In this document: one piece after another, positions 22,047 to 27,474 of the stretch
How positions within the stretch are numbered: the stretch's first letter is position 1
Layout of the letters: each line of letters opens with the position of its first letter
Assembly (NCBI GenBank): GCA_003132445.1
Contig: PKXU01000185.1
Coordinates: 1 to 64,000 of the forward strand
Origin: Acidobacteriaceae bacterium
GTDB lineage: Bacteria > Acidobacteriota > Terriglobia > Terriglobales > Acidobacteriaceae
Length of the DNA stretch: 64,000 nt
Reading direction: 5' to 3'
Made by a program: the position numbers and the translations under genes
The notes under the pieces: generated by a model
What the model was told of the DNA's origin: nothing
The model's input: only the letters and a program-made list of their open reading frames with translations
The model's database searches: none

Positions 22047-22256
22047 CTTGGACTCCGTCCGGGGGCGGTCAATTCCTGCCAATACATTTGTTCTGGGGCG
22101 GGCGCTCCGCGGGGCCACAGAGCATCGCACACTTCTGCTCAGAAACGGACACTACGTATTCTCTTGTCTTATGGCAGGCAAAGTACAATGCAGAATTTCG
22201 ATGCAAGCTATGCAAATTTCGGGGTATATTCTGACGCCAGGGCTTCCGCCTGGTGG

Positions 22257-22284
22257 TTGCCAACTGCGGCCACTCCGCTATAAT
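22257..22284 (+). promoter_or_regulatory. Putative sigma70-type promoter of LysR gene
   Basis: TTGCCA (22257-22262), 16-bp spacer, perfect TATAAT (22279-22284). Start of transcription would be near 22291, only about four bases before the ATG at 22295, implying a nearly leaderless mRNA. An inverted repeat CCAGG-gcttccg-CCTGG immediately upstream (about 22237-22253) may be a regulator-binding site shared with gltB. Confidence 0.5.
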
Positions 22285-22294
22285 TTCGCCACCC

Positions 22295-23197
22295 ATGGAC
22301 TTTGATCAGCTCATTACGTTTCTGGAAGTAGCCCGGCAGGGCAGTTTTTCTCGTGCCGGAGAAAAGGTTTTCCGCTCCCAGTCGGCTGTCAGCGCCCAGA
22401 TCCGCCAACTGGAGCAGGAGTATGGCGACCGGCTTCTCGATCGCTCGGGCAAAACCGTGAAACTGACCCCGGCCGGTCAGGTTTTTTTTGAATACGCCGA
22501 GCGTTTAAAGGCCCTACGGGATGAGTCCCTGACGGCAGTCGCCGACCACAGCGGCACACCCCGCGGTACTTTGCGTGTAGGCGCCAACGAAGCTACCTGT
22601 CTGTATGTCCTGCCCGAGGTCTTTGCCGAATACTGCCGGCGCTATCCTCCGGTGCAGATCAGCATCTACCGTAACTTCAGCTACAAAATCGTAGAGAAGC
22701 TGGAAAACGGGCAGGTGGAAGTCGGCATTCTTACCTTGCCGATCCAGTCGCCAAGCCTGAAGATCCAACCCATTTTCCGCGACAAGCTGATGTTGATGGT
22801 AAGCCCCAAGAATCCGCTGGCGAAGTTCAAAGTAGTGCCGGTCAGCGAGATCGTGAAACAACCTCTGCTCTTTCCGAAGACGGGACACACTCGCAGGCTG
22901 CTCGACAAGTTATTTCGTCCGCATCAGGCCGAATTGCAGGTTCGAATGGAGCTTCCCAGCATTGGAATGATCAAAAGCTTCGTGGCTGCAGACTTAGGCG
23001 TGTCGCTGATCAGCGCATCGTTTGCCCGCGATGAAGTCGAAGCCGGCCGTGTGAAGTTGATTGATCTTGAGGACGCATTGCTCTACCGCGAACTTGGACT
23101 GGCCTACCGCCGCGATCGAACTTTGTCCGTAGCCTCGACGGCTTTCGTCGGTCTTTTGCGTCAGTTTGCCACACAGATGAAGAAGGCCGAAGCGTAA
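22295..23197 (+). CDS. LysR-family transcriptional regulator
   Basis: 300 aa from ATG 22295, where the family begins (MDFDQLITFLEVARQGSFSRAGEKVFRSQSAVSAQIRQLE). The HTH occupies about residues 1-60. The effector domain runs from about 90 to 290 (GTLRVGANEATCLYVLP, VEVGILTLPI, PSIGMIKSFVAADLGVSLIS). It is divergent from gltB, as GltC is in Bacillus, and convergent with the sulfite-reduction operon (33 nt between stops), as CysL- or CysB-type regulators can be. Either pathway could be its target. The inverted repeat in front of it suggests autoregulation. No specific name is justified. Confidence 0.9.
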   Translation: MDFDQLITFLEVARQGSFSRAGEKVFRSQSAVSAQIRQLEQEYGDRLLDRSGKTVKLTPAGQVFFEYAERLKALRDESLTAVADHSGTPRGTLRVGANEATCLYVLPEVFAEYCRRYPPVQISIYRNFSYKIVEKLENGQVEVGILTLPIQSPSLKIQPIFRDKLMLMVSPKNPLAKFKVVPVSEIVKQPLLFPKTGHTRRLLDKLFRPHQAELQVRMELPSIGMIKSFVAADLGVSLISASFARDEVEAGRVKLIDLEDALLYRELGLAYRRDRTLSVASTAFVGLLRQFATQMKKAEA

Positions 23198-23230: not shown

Positions 23231-23971
23231 TCAGTTGCCGACCTTTGCAGCTTTCGCGGTATCTGACGCGAGCGAACCGTGCGCGGGCTCAATAATGTGC
23301 AACCCACACTCGGTCTTGGCGAAGCCCGCCCAGCGTCCCGCCCGTGGATCTTCTCCCGGACGCACTGCGCGCGTGCAGTGCGTGCATCCAATGCTGGGAT
23401 AGCTCTGATCATGAAGCTCGTTGTAGGGCACATCGTGATCGTGGATATAACTCCACACTTCCTTTGACGTCCAGTCGACAATCGGATTTACTTTCACCAG
23501 GCCGAATTTAGCGTCCCATTCGACTCTGCGCGCGCTTGATCGTGACGAGGTCTGATCGCGTCGAATGCTCGTGATCCAGGCGCCCAGTTCGCTGAGCTTG
23601 CGGCGCAGTGGTTCCACTTTGCGCAAATTGCAGCACCGGTCCGGATTTCCCGTCCACAATGCCGCCCCGTGAGTGCTCTCTTGCACCTCGGGCGAGAGAG
23701 CCGAATAGACCTTCTCAATCTCAATTCCGTATTTTTCTTCGATCCGGTCCATCAGATTGTAGGTCTCGGGAAAAAGGAATTCAGTGTCGATCGTGAAAAG
23801 CCGGAAATCTTTGCGCACTCGCGAAGCCATATCGATCAGCACCATTCCTTCGGCGCCGAATGCCGAAGAAATTGCAACAGCATTTCCGAAGGTTTGGAAA
23901 GACCAATGCAAGGTTCGCTGTGCACTCCAACTATCAGAGGCGCTTTGTATGTCTGCAATCTCTTGTTTCAT
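23231..23971 (-). CDS. cysH: Adenylyl-sulfate / phosphoadenylyl-sulfate reductase
   Basis: 246 aa from ATG 23971 (10 nt after the cobA stop). An in-frame start 30 nt upstream would overlap cobA. It has the PAPS-reductase fold (AFGAEGMVLIDMA; RLFTIDTEFLFPETYNLMDRIEEKYG; TSIRRDQT). Two cysteine pairs, CC at 113-114 and CTHC at 196-199, mark the 4Fe-4S-containing APS-reductase type. The catalytic Cys is in ECGLH (222). It reduces activated sulfate to sulfite with thioredoxin. It is the last gene of the siroheme/sulfite-reductase operon, whose leader appears to sense cysteine. ATP sulfurylase is not in the window. Confidence 0.93.
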   Translation of the reverse strand: MKQEIADIQSASDSWSAQRTLHWSFQTFGNAVAISSAFGAEGMVLIDMASRVRKDFRLFTIDTEFLFPETYNLMDRIEEKYGIEIEKVYSALSPEVQESTHGAALWTGNPDRCCNLRKVEPLRRKLSELGAWITSIRRDQTSSRSSARRVEWDAKFGLVKVNPIVDWTSKEVWSYIHDHDVPYNELHDQSYPSIGCTHCTRAVRPGEDPRAGRWAGFAKTECGLHIIEPAHGSLASDTAKAAKVGN

Positions 23972-23981
23972 TCGTGATCTT

Positions 23982-24818
23982 TCACGCGAGTGGCTCCTCA
24001 TTCGTTCTCAAATCCACCATCGAAAGAGTGTCGGAAAATAATGCCGAGGGAATCCTGATTTCGTCGCCCGCCGGATTCGTCACGGCAAACGTCCCTGTTA
24101 GCGCTGCAGAGTCAACGAAACGCACAACCTCGCCCACAACCAGCAGCGTGGGAGCGGCCAAATGAGGCGCGAGAGAGAGCTCGGCAATCGTCGTTCGGTG
24201 CGTTCGTTGCTGCGGAGTTGTGGCGCGAGAAATAACGGCGCAAGGCGTTTCGCCCTTAAGCCCAGCTGCCGTTAGCTTCGCTCCGACATCGGGATAATTC
24301 TGTCCGGGCATGTAAATCACCAGCGTCGCGCCGCTTCCCGCGAGCTTGCTCCAGTTTGCGGCTTCACTGCCGGAGGCCTGATGCGCGGTGATGAAAACAA
24401 GCGCTGATGAAGCTCTGCGATGAGTCAGCGGAATCTGCGCCGCTGCGGCTGCGCCCAGAGCAGAAGTTACTCCCGGAACAATCTCGTAAGCGATCCCGGC
24501 CCGCCGCAGCGCTTCGATTTCTTCCCCGGCACGCCCGAAGATTAACGGATCGCCGCTCTTCAGCCGAACCACGCGCAGCCCGGAATCAGCCAGGGCAATC
24601 ATCAAGAAGTTGATCTCCTCCTGCGCGATCTTCTTTTTTCCGCAGCGCTTCCCGACGTTGTGTACTTGCGCTCTAGACGGAATAAGTTTCAAAATCTCCG
24701 GCGCAACCAGATCGTCGTGCAGCACAGCATCGGCCGTTCTGAGCAGGCGCAGCGCCTTTAACGTCAGTAACTCCGGATCTCCTGGCCCTGCGCCCACCAG
24801 ATAAACTTTGCCTTTCAT
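23982..24818 (-). CDS. cobA: Uroporphyrinogen-III C-methyltransferase
   Basis: 278 aa. ATG overlaps the preceding stop by 4 nt (ATGA) with AAGGAG directly upstream. SUMT motifs: VYLVGAGPGDPELLTLKALRLL at the N-terminus, VVRLKSGDPLIFGRAGEE (about 83-100), PGVTSALGAAAAAQIPLTHR (about 119) and FITAHQ. It makes precorrin-2 with two SAM, the first step to siroheme. The C-terminal 30 residues extend past the usual end. Its place between cysG-N and cysH means it serves the siroheme of the sulfite reductase. Confidence 0.93.
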   Translation of the reverse strand: MKGKVYLVGAGPGDPELLTLKALRLLRTADAVLHDDLVAPEILKLIPSRAQVHNVGKRCGKKKIAQEEINFLMIALADSGLRVVRLKSGDPLIFGRAGEEIEALRRAGIAYEIVPGVTSALGAAAAAQIPLTHRRASSALVFITAHQASGSEAANWSKLAGSGATLVIYMPGQNYPDVGAKLTAAGLKGETPCAVISRATTPQQRTHRTTIAELSLAPHLAAPTLLVVGEVVRFVDSAALTGTFAVTNPAGDEIRIPSALFSDTLSMVDLRTNEEPLA

Positions 24819-25435
24819 GCTCCTTCTCCTTTGGCGGCGAGTTCCGGAATTTCAGCCAGCGCCGCTTCGACGGCTTCGCGGCTGGCCAGCGAATGCAACA
24901 GCTCCAGCTTGCGTACCTTATTGAGATCGCTGGCGAGAATGAGCTCTCGCGTCTTACCAAGTTCTGCCACCCACGCGGCATATCCAGGACCAAATTGCTT
25001 TTCCAGCTGCTGTCGAATTTTCTGCGCCAATGACGGGCTTTGTCCCGAGGTTGACACCGCAATTTGCAAGTCTCCGCGACGCACCACCGCGGGATAAAAG
25101 AAATCGCACAGATCGGGCACATCGACTACATTGCAAAGCACTCTTCGTCTCTGCGCTTCGTAATAGACGCGTTCATTGAGTATGCGAGAATTTGTCGCCA
25201 CCACAGCCAGGAAGGCGCCATCCAAATCCTCGGGTGCGAAAGCGCGGAGTTCGAGTTCGAGTTTTCCCGCACGCGCCCATTCGCGAACCGCCGGGCTGGC
25301 ATCGAGCGCGACCACGCGGATGTGCGCTCCCGCTTCCAACAGACCACCAATCTTGGGCTCGCCGATTTTTCCCGCGCCCACAACCAGGCATTGCTTGCCT
25401 TCCAGTTTTAGAAACATAGGAAATAAGTTAGTCAC
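24815..25435 (-). CDS. Precorrin-2 dehydrogenase / sirohydrochlorin ferrochelatase (CysG N-part)
   Basis: 206 aa from GTG 25435. This start has GGAGG five bases upstream, overlaps the reductase stop by 8 nt (GTGACTAA) and gives the family N-terminus MTNLFPMFLKLEGKQCLVVGAGKIG. The ATG at 25417 would cut into that motif. The NAD-binding GAGKIGEPKIGGLLEAGA is followed by an Asp/Asn-rich region (FLAVVATNS), NVVDVPDLCDFFYPAVVRRGDLQIAVSTSGQSPSLAQKIRQQLE and a helical tail. It oxidises precorrin-2 and inserts iron to give siroheme. It corresponds to the CysG N-terminal half or Met8; the methyltransferase half is the separate next gene. Confidence 0.92.
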   Translation of the reverse strand: MTNLFPMFLKLEGKQCLVVGAGKIGEPKIGGLLEAGAHIRVVALDASPAVREWARAGKLELELRAFAPEDLDGAFLAVVATNSRILNERVYYEAQRRRVLCNVVDVPDLCDFFYPAVVRRGDLQIAVSTSGQSPSLAQKIRQQLEKQFGPGYAAWVAELGKTRELILASDLNKVRKLELLHSLASREAVEAALAEIPELAAKGEGA

Positions 25436-27146
25436 CGGCGCCTCCTGCGGAGTGCGCCAGACTCCGAGACGGGTCCGGCAGATCACGAGCCACAGCAGGT
25501 ACGGCTTCGCCGGCCAGAAATTCGCGCAACTCCGTATCGCTGTGCCGGACAAAGAACCGCCGCAGATTTTCTCCTGGTTCGCGTTGCGCCAGATATCGTC
25601 CCAACAGACGTTCGAGAGCGTCCGGCACTTCGGTCGCAGCGCAGCGATATCCGACTGGCCTCGCCGTGGCTTGATGCAAGCCCAGCGCGCCCCCCACGCA
25701 GAAGTAATAAGCATCGACCAGGCGATCCTGAACTTTGATCTTCTTGCCTTCAATGCCAACGTCGGCAATCCAGTGCTGTCCGCAGCTGTTGGGGCATCCG
25801 GTAACGTGCAACTTCAGGTGCTGATCGAAACCGGGCAATCGTTCTTCCAATTCTTCGACCAGCCAGCGCGAGAAGCTTTTAGTTTCGGTAATTGCCAGCT
25901 TGCAGAATTCCGTTCCGCTGCACGCAACCGTGCCGCGCCAGAATGACGACCCGCCGACCTTCAATCCGATCGCGTCGAATTCTTTAGCCAGAGGTTCGGC
26001 GTTGAGGATGGGGACGTTGACAACGAGCAAGTTCTGCATGTTGGTGGCGCGCAATTCGCCGCCCGCAAAGCGCTCGGCAAGATCCGCAGCCGCCTGCATC
26101 TGCTCCGCATTGATTCGTCCCCGCAACGCGACCGCACCCACATACGAAAGACCGGGCTGTTTCTGCGCGTGGATTCCTATGTGATCGCGGTAGACATCGT
26201 CAGGCGGATGCTCCTCGACGGCGGGATCGAGTTTGAATCTAATGCGGCCTTCAAGTTCTTCGAGAAAACGTTCAGCAGTCCATCCGTGCCGCAGAAATAG
26301 AAATTTCAGGCGAGCGCGTTCGCGATGTTCCCGCAGCACATCGGAATCGCGGAACAATTCGGCGATGCCCTTGATCACCGGAAGAACCTGGTTCCAACGA
26401 ACGAACGCATTCAACCGCGCTCCCAGATACGGTTCCGTGGAAAGGCCGCCGGCGACCCGCAGCGAAAAGCCTACTTCGGGCTTCCCCCCAACTACGCGGG
26501 CCAACGCAGTCAAGCCAATGTCATTGATTTCAGGATAGGGACACCACACCCGGCATCCGGTGATGGAGATCTTGAACTTGCGCGGCAGGTTATAAAAGTC
26601 GGAATTACCCGCCAGCAGCCGCGAGGCCTCCAGCACCAACGGCGAGGCGTCAATAATTTCGTCGGCATCCACACCTGCGACCGGACACCCGGTCACGTTG
26701 CGCGTCACGTCGCCGCAAGCGCCCATTGTATTCAGACCAACAGCCCACAAGCCTTCGAGCACTTCCGGCAACGATTCGATCGTGACCCAATGCAGCTGAA
26801 TATTTTGTCGCACCGTGAGGTCGGCGATTCCATTCGCGTGTTGGCGAGTGAGGTTGGCGATGGCACGCAACTGCTGCGAATTCATCATGCCGTTGGGAAT
26901 GCGAATGCGAACCATGAAGCGCTGCAGGGCGCGGCCTTCGCCACCTTGTCCGCCAGTGACACCTGCTCCATCGCCCTGAGTGTAAACGCCCCACCAACGG
27001 AAATAAGTTCCGATCCATTCCGGAGGAATGGAATCGAAGCCTTCGCGCGCGAAACGGCGAATCTCCGCGAGCCCTTGCCAGGGATTCATGGCGCGCTTGA
27101 GGCGCTCGACTTTTTGTGCTTTGGTTTCTTTGGCTGTAGTTGTCAT
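25428..27146 (-). CDS. Ferredoxin-type sulfite (or nitrite) reductase
   Basis: 572 aa. Duplicated siroheme/4Fe-4S reductase: first half with ADLTVRQNIQLHW (about 109-120), second half with the cluster cysteines Cys409 and Cys415 (ACSGTEFCK) and Cys451 and Cys455 (TGCPNSCGQ). It catalyses six-electron reduction of sulfite to sulfide (or nitrite to ammonia). The operon with cysH and siroheme genes, and the poly-Cys leader, favour sulfite; sequence alone does not exclude nitrite. It is the first structural gene after the attenuator, the ATG lying 22 nt past the terminator stem. Its ribosome site is weak, so translation may depend on the upstream structure. Confidence 0.9.
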   Translation of the reverse strand: MTTTAKETKAQKVERLKRAMNPWQGLAEIRRFAREGFDSIPPEWIGTYFRWWGVYTQGDGAGVTGGQGGEGRALQRFMVRIRIPNGMMNSQQLRAIANLTRQHANGIADLTVRQNIQLHWVTIESLPEVLEGLWAVGLNTMGACGDVTRNVTGCPVAGVDADEIIDASPLVLEASRLLAGNSDFYNLPRKFKISITGCRVWCPYPEINDIGLTALARVVGGKPEVGFSLRVAGGLSTEPYLGARLNAFVRWNQVLPVIKGIAELFRDSDVLREHRERARLKFLFLRHGWTAERFLEELEGRIRFKLDPAVEEHPPDDVYRDHIGIHAQKQPGLSYVGAVALRGRINAEQMQAAADLAERFAGGELRATNMQNLLVVNVPILNAEPLAKEFDAIGLKVGGSSFWRGTVACSGTEFCKLAITETKSFSRWLVEELEERLPGFDQHLKLHVTGCPNSCGQHWIADVGIEGKKIKVQDRLVDAYYFCVGGALGLHQATARPVGYRCAATEVPDALERLLGRYLAQREPGENLRRFFVRHSDTELREFLAGEAVPAVARDLPDPSRSLAHSAGGAGD

Positions 27147-27167
27147 AGGTTCATTTGGAAAATAAAA

Positions 27168-27199
27168 AACCCACCGCCAGGTTCGTCTGGCGATGGGTT
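27168..27199 (-). terminator. Attenuator terminator of the sulfite-reduction operon
   Basis: On the minus strand a 13-bp stem (one G-U pair), AACCCATCGCCAG / CTGGCGGTGGGTT, with loop ACGAAC, is followed by TTTTATTTT. It is a textbook intrinsic terminator. It lies between the leader peptide stop (27228) and the reductase ATG (27146), so it would end transcription before the operon unless prevented. Confidence 0.9.
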
Positions 27200-27227
27200 G
27201 ATGAGTGCCGGTATTAAGAAAAATCTC

Positions 27228-27293
27228 TTAGGTCAGCAGTCTCCCCGCGCCAGTGCGCACGCATGCACAACAACAACAAGTGCAGCAGCACAT
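27228..27293 (-). CDS. Poly-cysteine leader peptide (attenuator sensor)
   Basis: A 21-codon ORF: ATG 27293, then Cys-Cys-Cys-Thr-Cys-Cys-Cys-Cys-Ala-Cys, then ten residues ending Leu-Leu-Thr and TAA at 27230-27228. Eight of the first eleven codons are Cys (TGC and TGT mixed). It lies about 30 nt after a predicted transcription start and 29 nt before the terminator stem. Codons 14-17 (27253-27243) read CUGGCGCGGGG, which can pair with the terminator's 5' arm (6 bp, two mismatches, 3 bp). Ribosome stalling on the Cys codons would leave this segment free and block the terminator; completing the peptide would cover it. No Shine-Dalgarno sequence is obvious. Confidence 0.8.
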   Translation of the reverse strand: MCCCTCCCCACVRTGAGRLLT

Positions 27294-27329
27294 AGCGCAA
27301 AAATTGCAGGAGTCTGACATTCCAGTTAG

Positions 27330-27358
27330 ATTCTAGGTTGACCAGCTTCAGCCGTCAA
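27330..27358 (-). promoter_or_regulatory. Sigma70-type promoter of the attenuated sulfur operon
   Basis: On the minus strand: TTGACG (27358-27353), 17-bp spacer, TAGAAT (27335-27330). Predicted transcription start is about 27323, about 30 nt before the leader ATG. Ten of twelve positions match the consensus hexamers and the spacing is optimal. Confidence 0.7.
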
Positions 27359-27474
27359 CAATCTTACGTAACGCTTGGATTCATAAATTGAATAGAAGGA
27401 ATCAGATTTTTTGCGGCTGGGCTATCAAGACCCCTGCCTAACTGTAGAATCAGCAACTTAGGATCGGGAAGAAA

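Follow-up and report, generated by a model that had tools for sequence, protein, structure and literature searches.

The analyzed window is a stretch of 64,000 nucleotides (nt) from an Acidobacteriaceae bacterium (assembly GCA_003132445.1, contig PKXU01000185.1, positions 1 to 64,000 of the forward strand). On its minus strand, an operon for sulfite reduction and siroheme synthesis, opened by the gene sir, is preceded by a short cysteine-rich open reading frame (ORF) and an intrinsic terminator. An earlier reading of the sequence, herein referred to as the original prediction, proposed that this leader region is a cysteine-sensing transcription attenuator. Comparison with related genomes shows that the arrangement is real and conserved, and it is very probably a functional attenuator. 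The following features were found at the locus:

27330..27358 (-): sigma-70-like promoter, TTGACG-17-TAGAAT (TTGACG 27358-27353, TAGAAT 27335-27330)
~27323 (-): predicted transcription start, placed from the promoter
27228..27320 (-): leader ORF MSDSCNFCAMCCCTCCCCACVRTGAGRLLT, 30 codons plus TAA, 10 Cys (stop codon 27230-27228)
27293-27291 (-): internal ATG, opening a shorter ORF MCCCTCCCCACVRTGAGRLLT of 21 amino acids with 8 Cys in the first 11
27242..27303 (-): P1, predicted protector hairpin (1:2), in which 27303-27280 pairs with 27268-27242; the 5' side is the start and Cys-codon region and the 3' side contains segment 2
27243..27253 (-): segment 2, predicted antiterminator 5' arm, CUGGCGCGGGG
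27206..27238 (-): P2 hairpin, UGCUG (27238-27234) with CGGCA (27210-27206), enclosing the leader stop codon
27187..27197 (-): segment 3, CCCAUCGCCAG, within the terminator 5' arm and the alternative partner of segment 2
27168..27199 (-): intrinsic terminator hairpin, 13 pairs (8 GC), followed by a U-tract
27157..27167 (-): remainder of the U-rich tract past the terminator
25428..27146 (-): sir, NirA-family nitrite/sulfite reductase, first gene of the operon (ATG 27146; PF01077, PF03460)
24815..25768 (-): siroheme synthase N-terminal-domain protein (homology from residue 116)
23982..24818 (-): uroporphyrinogen-III C-methyltransferase (cobA/cysG C-terminal type)
23231..24001 (-): cysH, phospho-/adenylylsulfate reductase
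22253-23197 (+): gene of a LysR-type regulator, convergent (tail to tail) with cysH

The near-consensus promoter, a leader segment complementary to the 5' arm of the terminator (9 pairs over 11 positions, 27253-27243 with 27197-27187), the 13-bp terminator with its T-tract (27199-27168) and the sulfite-reduction and siroheme genes downstream had all been claimed by the original prediction and were recovered. The best NCBIfam score of the sir product was 353 bits, under the curated cut-off of 594, and the gene was named a sulfite reductase because of its operon partners. The true start of the siroheme synthase N-terminal-domain protein is probably further in, since homology begins only at residue 116.

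A leader of 21 codons with 8 Cys in the first 11 had also been described, and this ORF is present from 27293. The likelier start, however, is the ATG at 27320, which lies nine bases past the -10 box, about 3 nt from the predicted transcription start and in frame with the Cys run. This choice is based on the relatives described below: of 65 leaders, 57 have a promoter with at least 9 of 12 matches upstream, and the first in-frame ATG follows the end of the -10 box by 6-14 nt in 52 of them, the start site being predicted. For the same reason the leader ORFs are probably leaderless or nearly so. A Shine-Dalgarno (SD)-like 4-mer was found upstream of the first leader ATG in 5 of 64 cases (raw count).

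Promoter-like and terminator-like sites show no excess as such (4 vs. 5.7 and 16 vs. 16.8 in shuffled sequence, 14 kb). The poly-Cys ORF, in contrast, is far beyond chance. Both strands of 80 sir loci (659 kb) were scanned for short ORFs that start with ATG and have at least 6 Cys in 14 codons: 34 lie within 400 nt before sir and none elsewhere. At a threshold of at least 5 Cys, the counts were 40 and 2. Apart from the leader, the maximum in the 64-kb window is 5 Cys, reached by two ORFs.

Of 200 genomes of the order, 168 have a sir relative (protein search, E<=1e-60), and a scan of contigs gave 80 of 586 loci, some labelled Candidatus Sulfotelmatobacter. A leader ORF with at least 4 Cys in 14 codons was found in 69 of 100 scored upstream regions, or in 65 of 94 after six duplicate pairs were merged. 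All of these belong to the 77 regions without a Rokubacteria or Methylomirabilota label (65/77 vs. 0/17). The regions upstream of L033, L072, L092 and L103 (L numbers denote loci and G numbers genomes) were too short to be scored, and that of L058 is partly masked (N). Among the misses, at least four (L048, L052, L081, and L101) have a similar leader with fewer Cys, and another (L028/L094, genome G004) matches the covariance model of the element, herein referred to as R1, at E 2e-20. The leaders at L029 and L095 are unusually distant from sir, with stop codons at -330 and -257. Another 18 sir loci represent other genera of the family: 11 of them have a Cys-rich frame within ~250 nt of sir, L234 (the genome of L029) has one further off, and six have none nearby. 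The sir gene of L103, whose contig is labelled Candidatus Eremiobacterota, is 79% identical to that of the window; this contig is possibly misbinned acidobacterial sequence.

The original prediction was to fall if the Cys codons were not conserved in relatives, and it survived: the four core positions are Cys in 52, 54, 50, and 42 of 58 in-frame leaders. The number of Cys per leader ranges from 4 to 11 (63 leaders) with a variable pattern. In 54 of 63 elements, the CUGG core of segment 2 precedes the stop codon by exactly 23 nt.

Four adjacent codons in the Cys run of the window leader are TGT, against a preference of the operon for TGC (TGT 4, TGC 22). TGT also dominates the core in relatives, which structure or codon sensitivity could explain.

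The predicted fold of the leader RNA consists of P1, P2, and the terminator (z -5.64; 0 of 200 shuffles as good). Because the 3' arm of P1 contains segment 2, which is also complementary to the 5' arm of the terminator, pairings 1:2, 2:3, and 3:4 would compete as in classical attenuators. The terminator and antiterminator of the original prediction stand, but its picture was incomplete, lacking P2 around the stop codon and the pairing of segment 2 in P1. No Rfam covariance model (T-box, riboswitch, or other family) matched the window at gathering score, and none matched 27100-27420 at E<=1.

Conservation of these pairings was analyzed in an alignment of 49 of the 66 extracted elements (A1), 17 close or very divergent ones being omitted. 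For the terminator, 89% of the alignment cells are paired, compared with 34-51% when the pairing is slid out of register; 7 of its 13 pairs have changes on both sides, and 0 of 500 shuffles scored as high. Its mean energy is -24.1 kcal/mol over 62 sir leaders. The antiterminator is near-invariant, with 91% of cells paired, which supports it. P2 is paired in 73% of cells, with weak covariation. The RNAalifold consensus on A1 was CUGGC/GCCAG, the antiterminator; the terminator was not returned from A1, its conservation being lower than that of the antiterminator core. The upstream pairing of segment 2, in P1, has a value of 0.78 vs. 0.66 in codon-shuffled controls (66 elements; Wilcoxon p 1e-10). 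For the window singly the values are 0.78 and 0.65, and 6 of 30 controls are as high.

Co-adaptation of the antiterminator arms was analyzed by swapping partners between elements. Bases immediately 5' of CUGG were paired with those immediately 3' of CCAG; the latter fall mostly within the terminator loop, and the terminator stem does not require them. This was done for the 84 of 102 elements with the required core; the duplex set omitted L151, L158, L163, and L179. Own partners reach -12.69 kcal/mol and swapped ones -11.27 kcal/mol, with 0 of 5000 permutations as good (54 representatives, <80% identity). Under the stricter limit of <60% identity (21 representatives) 13 of 5000 permutations were as good, and for sir alone (n=13) the count was 18 of 5000.

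The antiterminator was also compared with codon-shuffled leaders. In the sir set (n=62), the value is -20.5 vs. -16.1, and in 21 further leaders with a terminator it is -21.2 vs. -16.5 (Wilcoxon p 0.001). The latter gain is due to 11 leaders found in the search of the phylum. Eight of these (L194-L196, L198, L203, L204, L210, and L215) reach p<=0.023, their arms being rewritten yet complementary, e.g., CUCUCCGGCGGUGG with CCCACUGCCGGAGAG; the remaining three (L200, L213, and L214) miss p 0.05. Over the set, these comparisons support an antiterminator that is present and co-adapted with its partner; the support is weaker for the window alone.

Conservation of SGAGRLLT as a peptide was considered and rejected, as the RNA motif survives frame changes (L020, L024, L043, L087, and L100). 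The frame of CUGG relative to the Cys run is distributed 58/3/2 over 63 elements, and before aspartate kinase genes CUUCUGGAGGA is translated as Leu-Leu-Glu rather than Ser-Ser-Gly. Since segment 2 persists across these frame changes, the sequences argue that the RNA is kept and not the peptide tail.

Matches to R1 occur in 73 of the 200 order genomes at E<=0.01 and, at E<=0.001, in 26 of 396 genomes of the phylum. From the order search, 40 further matches were fetched, of which L142 is another sir; from the phylum search, 18 of 20 matches were read, two having cut flanks. Genes after or near the leader were named by scanning 18 proteins with NCBIfam, while names in the phylum search were given by reading and not by profile. 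The NCBIfam matches in sulfur metabolism were CysD (L149), CysN behind a CysD-like ORF (L168), CysK (L152 and L157), CysG (L174), a uroporphyrinogen methyltransferase ~0.6 kb on (L141), a sulfate-binding protein (L165), and, below the cut-off, a second NirA-like reductase (L171). NCBIfam also named a family 2A encapsulin shell (L145, 506 bits) and the C-terminal part of the cysteine-desulfurase cargo gene of an encapsulin (L158). The leaders at these sulfur and encapsulin loci have 3 to 8 Cys in 14 codons. Cys leaders in the phylum search precede cysteine synthase (L194-L196), cysH (L198, L203, and L210), sir-like genes (L201 and L215), a YeeE-like transporter (L213), and a peroxiredoxin-like gene (L214).

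Attenuator-like Cys leaders from other genera of the family lie ~0.45-0.6 kb before family 2A encapsulin shell genes (L143, L145, L148, L150, L153, L155, L162, and L164), the shell being identified by NCBIfam for L145 only and by likeness for the others. The gap between leader and shell gene holds a rhodanese-like ORF in L148 and L153; at the other encapsulin loci, no ATG-started ORF was found to account for it. In Synechococcus, sulfate starvation upregulates a family 2A encapsulin (PMC8049743), and a Cys leader near such an encapsulin fits with this.

Similar elements were found with codons for other amino acids. Leaders rich in Thr, Ile, and Met, e.g., MTTLIQKSTRITSTGTGMSTRITCLLEDGIG, precede aspartate kinase (L154 and L161 by NCBIfam; L167, L170, L172, and L173 by likeness). 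Met leaders MAMCMHICTFRREELLT and MAMSMHMCTIRPTGAGFQQS precede homoserine dehydrogenase (L147 and L169), a Val leader MPVPVQPAKVAVVGVAVGVVGLSVGRVVALAGESAD precedes a fragment of ilvB (L163), and an Ile/Val leader MNSRLHTIAVVARISSRVQIIVRHGALLEESIC precedes ilvC (L176), in each case with a terminator. In the phylum search, a Met leader was found before an O-acetylhomoserine-sulfhydrylase-like (metY-like) gene (L204) and a leader WYWW..W before a DAHP-synthase-like gene (L200). Thus, leader codons match the pathway at several other genes: Thr/Ile before aspartokinase, Val before ilvB, and Met before homoserine dehydrogenase. The genes at L159/L160, L175, L180, and others show no clear pathway fit. 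Both L159 and L160 have a Cys leader before a putative outer-membrane protein, for which L159 gave no NCBIfam match at 1e-20. Six R1 matches (L202, L205, L206, L207, L211, and L179) have no leader with a terminator and look like chance.

A tentative generalization is that Acidobacteriota possess one modular attenuator chassis into which codons for different amino acids were swapped during evolution, and which would control cysteine, threonine, methionine, branched-chain, and aromatic pathways as well as sulfur-linked encapsulins across the phylum. Equally tentatively, this chassis would comprise a nearly leaderless leader ORF, a P2 hairpin, and a CUGG-type antiterminator overlapping a GCCAG-type terminator. 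If true, it would be a ribosome-read, codon-programmable counterpart of the T-box system.

We assign a probability of roughly 0.86 to the reading that the window element is a ribosome-mediated transcription attenuator that senses charged Cys-tRNA ahead of sir-siroheme-cysH. RNA polymerase would start at the promoter, and a ribosome would load at the nearly leaderless AUG. Under a shortage of Cys-tRNA, this ribosome would stall in the Cys run, open P1, and free segment 2, which would then pair with segment 3; the terminator would not form and the operon would be transcribed. P2 may aid the 2:3 pairing by shortening the distance between the two segments. When cysteine is plentiful, a ribosome at the stop codon would mask the 3' half of segment 2 together with the 5' arm of P2, and the terminator would form. 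Without translation, P1 would sequester segment 2, making termination the default. From these parts, we infer stalling, termination, and readthrough in vivo, a role for P2, and cysteine as the signal.

The geometry was derived from ribosome footprints. With the A site anywhere in codons 11-18, the ribosome would leave segment 2 free, since this segment begins at codon 23 of the long ORF, and a ribosome at the stop codon would cover the RNA from ~27248 onward. According to the original prediction, a stalled ribosome leaves the antiterminator free and one at the stop codon covers it; the first half would hold, while in the second half coverage would be limited to the 3' half of segment 2 and the 5' arm of P2. 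Of its competing hairpins, the terminator covaries in relatives and the antiterminator arms are co-adapted over the set, but double changes in the antiterminator are missing from A1. Cysteine attenuation as a whole gains support, with unforeseen aid from the Thr/Ile, Val, and Met modules before matching genes.

Several results weigh against this reading. In A1, no antiterminator pair has double changes and no covariation was found, because the core hardly varies; the antiterminator and P2 together are not above shuffles. The partner swap was not significant for the non-sir subset alone under 70% identity (714 of 5000, n=13), and the flanks of the window element add nothing to its antiterminator pairing (-8.7 vs. 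a mean of -12.4). Against codon-shuffled leaders, 23 of 62 sir leaders singly reach p<=0.05, and the window antiterminator alone is not better than its controls (p=0.14). At the sir loci with a Cys frame in other genera of the family, a terminator was found in 10 of 11 and a significant antiterminator in 0 of 10. The remaining genomes of the order and phylum gave no R1 match, and some matches are chance terminators. Additionally, the sequences are related, so that p values are inflated and independence is overstated throughout.

An unlikely alternative is that attenuation is mainly translational, as in mycobacterial poly-Cys leaders: a hairpin would hide the ribosome-binding region of sir, stalling would open it, and termination would be secondary. 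In several relatives (e.g., L060 and L062) the sir ATG directly follows the U-tract, which puts the 3' arm of the hairpin inside the initiation region, and the nearly leaderless poly-Cys ORFs resemble the mycobacterial ones as described in PMC9031893. Against this stand the strength of the stem (the mean of -24.1 kcal/mol given above) with the U-rich tract behind it and the window itself, where the sir ATG lies 21 nt beyond the terminator stem. Furthermore, there would be little SD sequence to hide, as an SD-like 4-mer was found before sir in just 2 of 29 loci. Since sir starts right at the U-tract in some relatives, translational control may nevertheless be an added layer on transcription attenuation.

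Cys-dense peptides bind metals. The nascent or free leader peptide might accordingly sense metals or redox state by thiol chemistry in place of Cys-tRNA, an idea to which the Fe-S/siroheme enzymes made from the regulated genes and the one Cys leader before a peroxiredoxin-like gene (L214, named by reading) lend some color. It is very improbable given that, ahead of matching biosynthetic genes, comparable RNA modules have Thr/Ile, Val, or Met codons, that the number and pattern of Cys vary (4-11), and that frame-shifted members keep the RNA segment. Because leader amino acids match several pathways, the codons appear to be what is read, and hence Cys-tRNA and not peptide chemistry. Least probable of all is control at the promoter only, e.g., by the adjoining LysR-type regulator (best NCBIfam match LysR_Sec_metab, below cut-off; CysB models match weakly), with the leader an unregulated relic, as a relic would not retain codons, spacing, and competing arms over such a range. 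LysR control may, however, act in addition to the attenuator.

Ribosome-mediated transcription attenuators control the trp, his, thr, and ilv operons of the Escherichia coli type. The element analyzed here shares with them a leader ORF with end-product codons, segments pairing as 1:2, 2:3, and 3:4 (the terminator), and a biosynthetic operon downstream; the Thr/Ile leader of relatives before aspartokinase resembles E. coli thrL. It differs in the amino acid sensed, probably cysteine, in its nearly leaderless ORF, in the extra P2 around the stop codon inside 2:3, in its occurrence in Acidobacteriota, and in that leaders for several amino acids are followed by a similar 2:3:4 module. Poly-Cys leaderless short ORFs of mycobacteria are also known, reportedly from a study by Canestrari and co-workers in 2020. 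These ORFs are cysteine-responsive attenuators described as translational (PMC9031893, PMC13236596). Like the leaders analyzed here, for which the transcript start is predicted, they lie (nearly) leaderless at the 5' end of the transcript before cysteine genes, whereas here a covarying intrinsic terminator and a competing antiterminator were found.

Runs of Cys in short ORFs before cys and cbs genes were described in Mycobacterium, Propionibacterium, and Bifidobacterium (Seliverstov et al., 2005; PMC1262725). According to that paper, the leaders have no conserved terminator hairpins (Mycobacterium) and their Cys runs lie near the stop codon. Here, in contrast, the Cys run is followed by ~10 codons carrying the antiterminator arm and then by the terminator. 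According to Naville and Gautheret (2010; PMC2965389), hardly any of the attenuators predicted in Acidobacteria have associated functions. Cys-specific attenuation with a classical terminator and antiterminator was not found in the literature searched, although the broad prediction survey of Lopatovskaya (2010) could include it. The window element looks like a known kind of attenuator that is new in its combination of cysteine, terminator/antiterminator, a nearly leaderless ORF, and Acidobacteriota, and the wider set looks modular.

The poly-Cys leaders known so far are said to act at translation or to have no conserved terminators. If this reading is right, it provides a mechanism for a conserved element in a little-studied soil phylum. 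It would also predict a cysteine regulon of sir, cysH, cysD/N, cysK, cysG, sulfate uptake, and an encapsulin with cysteine-desulfurase cargo. Moreover, the many natural replicas of the attenuator could be used for studying the coupling of nearly leaderless ORFs to transcription.

In the genome of the window (G000), R1 gave 11 matches at E<=10: the window element, a plus-strand match across the terminator of that element, and nine that are weak; of the latter, the one that was read (L182, E 0.03) has no leader. Only the sir element scores well in this genome. No Cys leader was found in the 420 nt before the matches of the two cysK homologues (L236 and L237). Aspartokinase and ilvC were not found with proteins of relatives (E<=1e-30), an uninformative empty result in a genome that is 87% complete. 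For ilvB (L235, contig C201), a Val/Leu-rich short ORF and a terminator were read by eye upstream of ~49737 on the minus strand.

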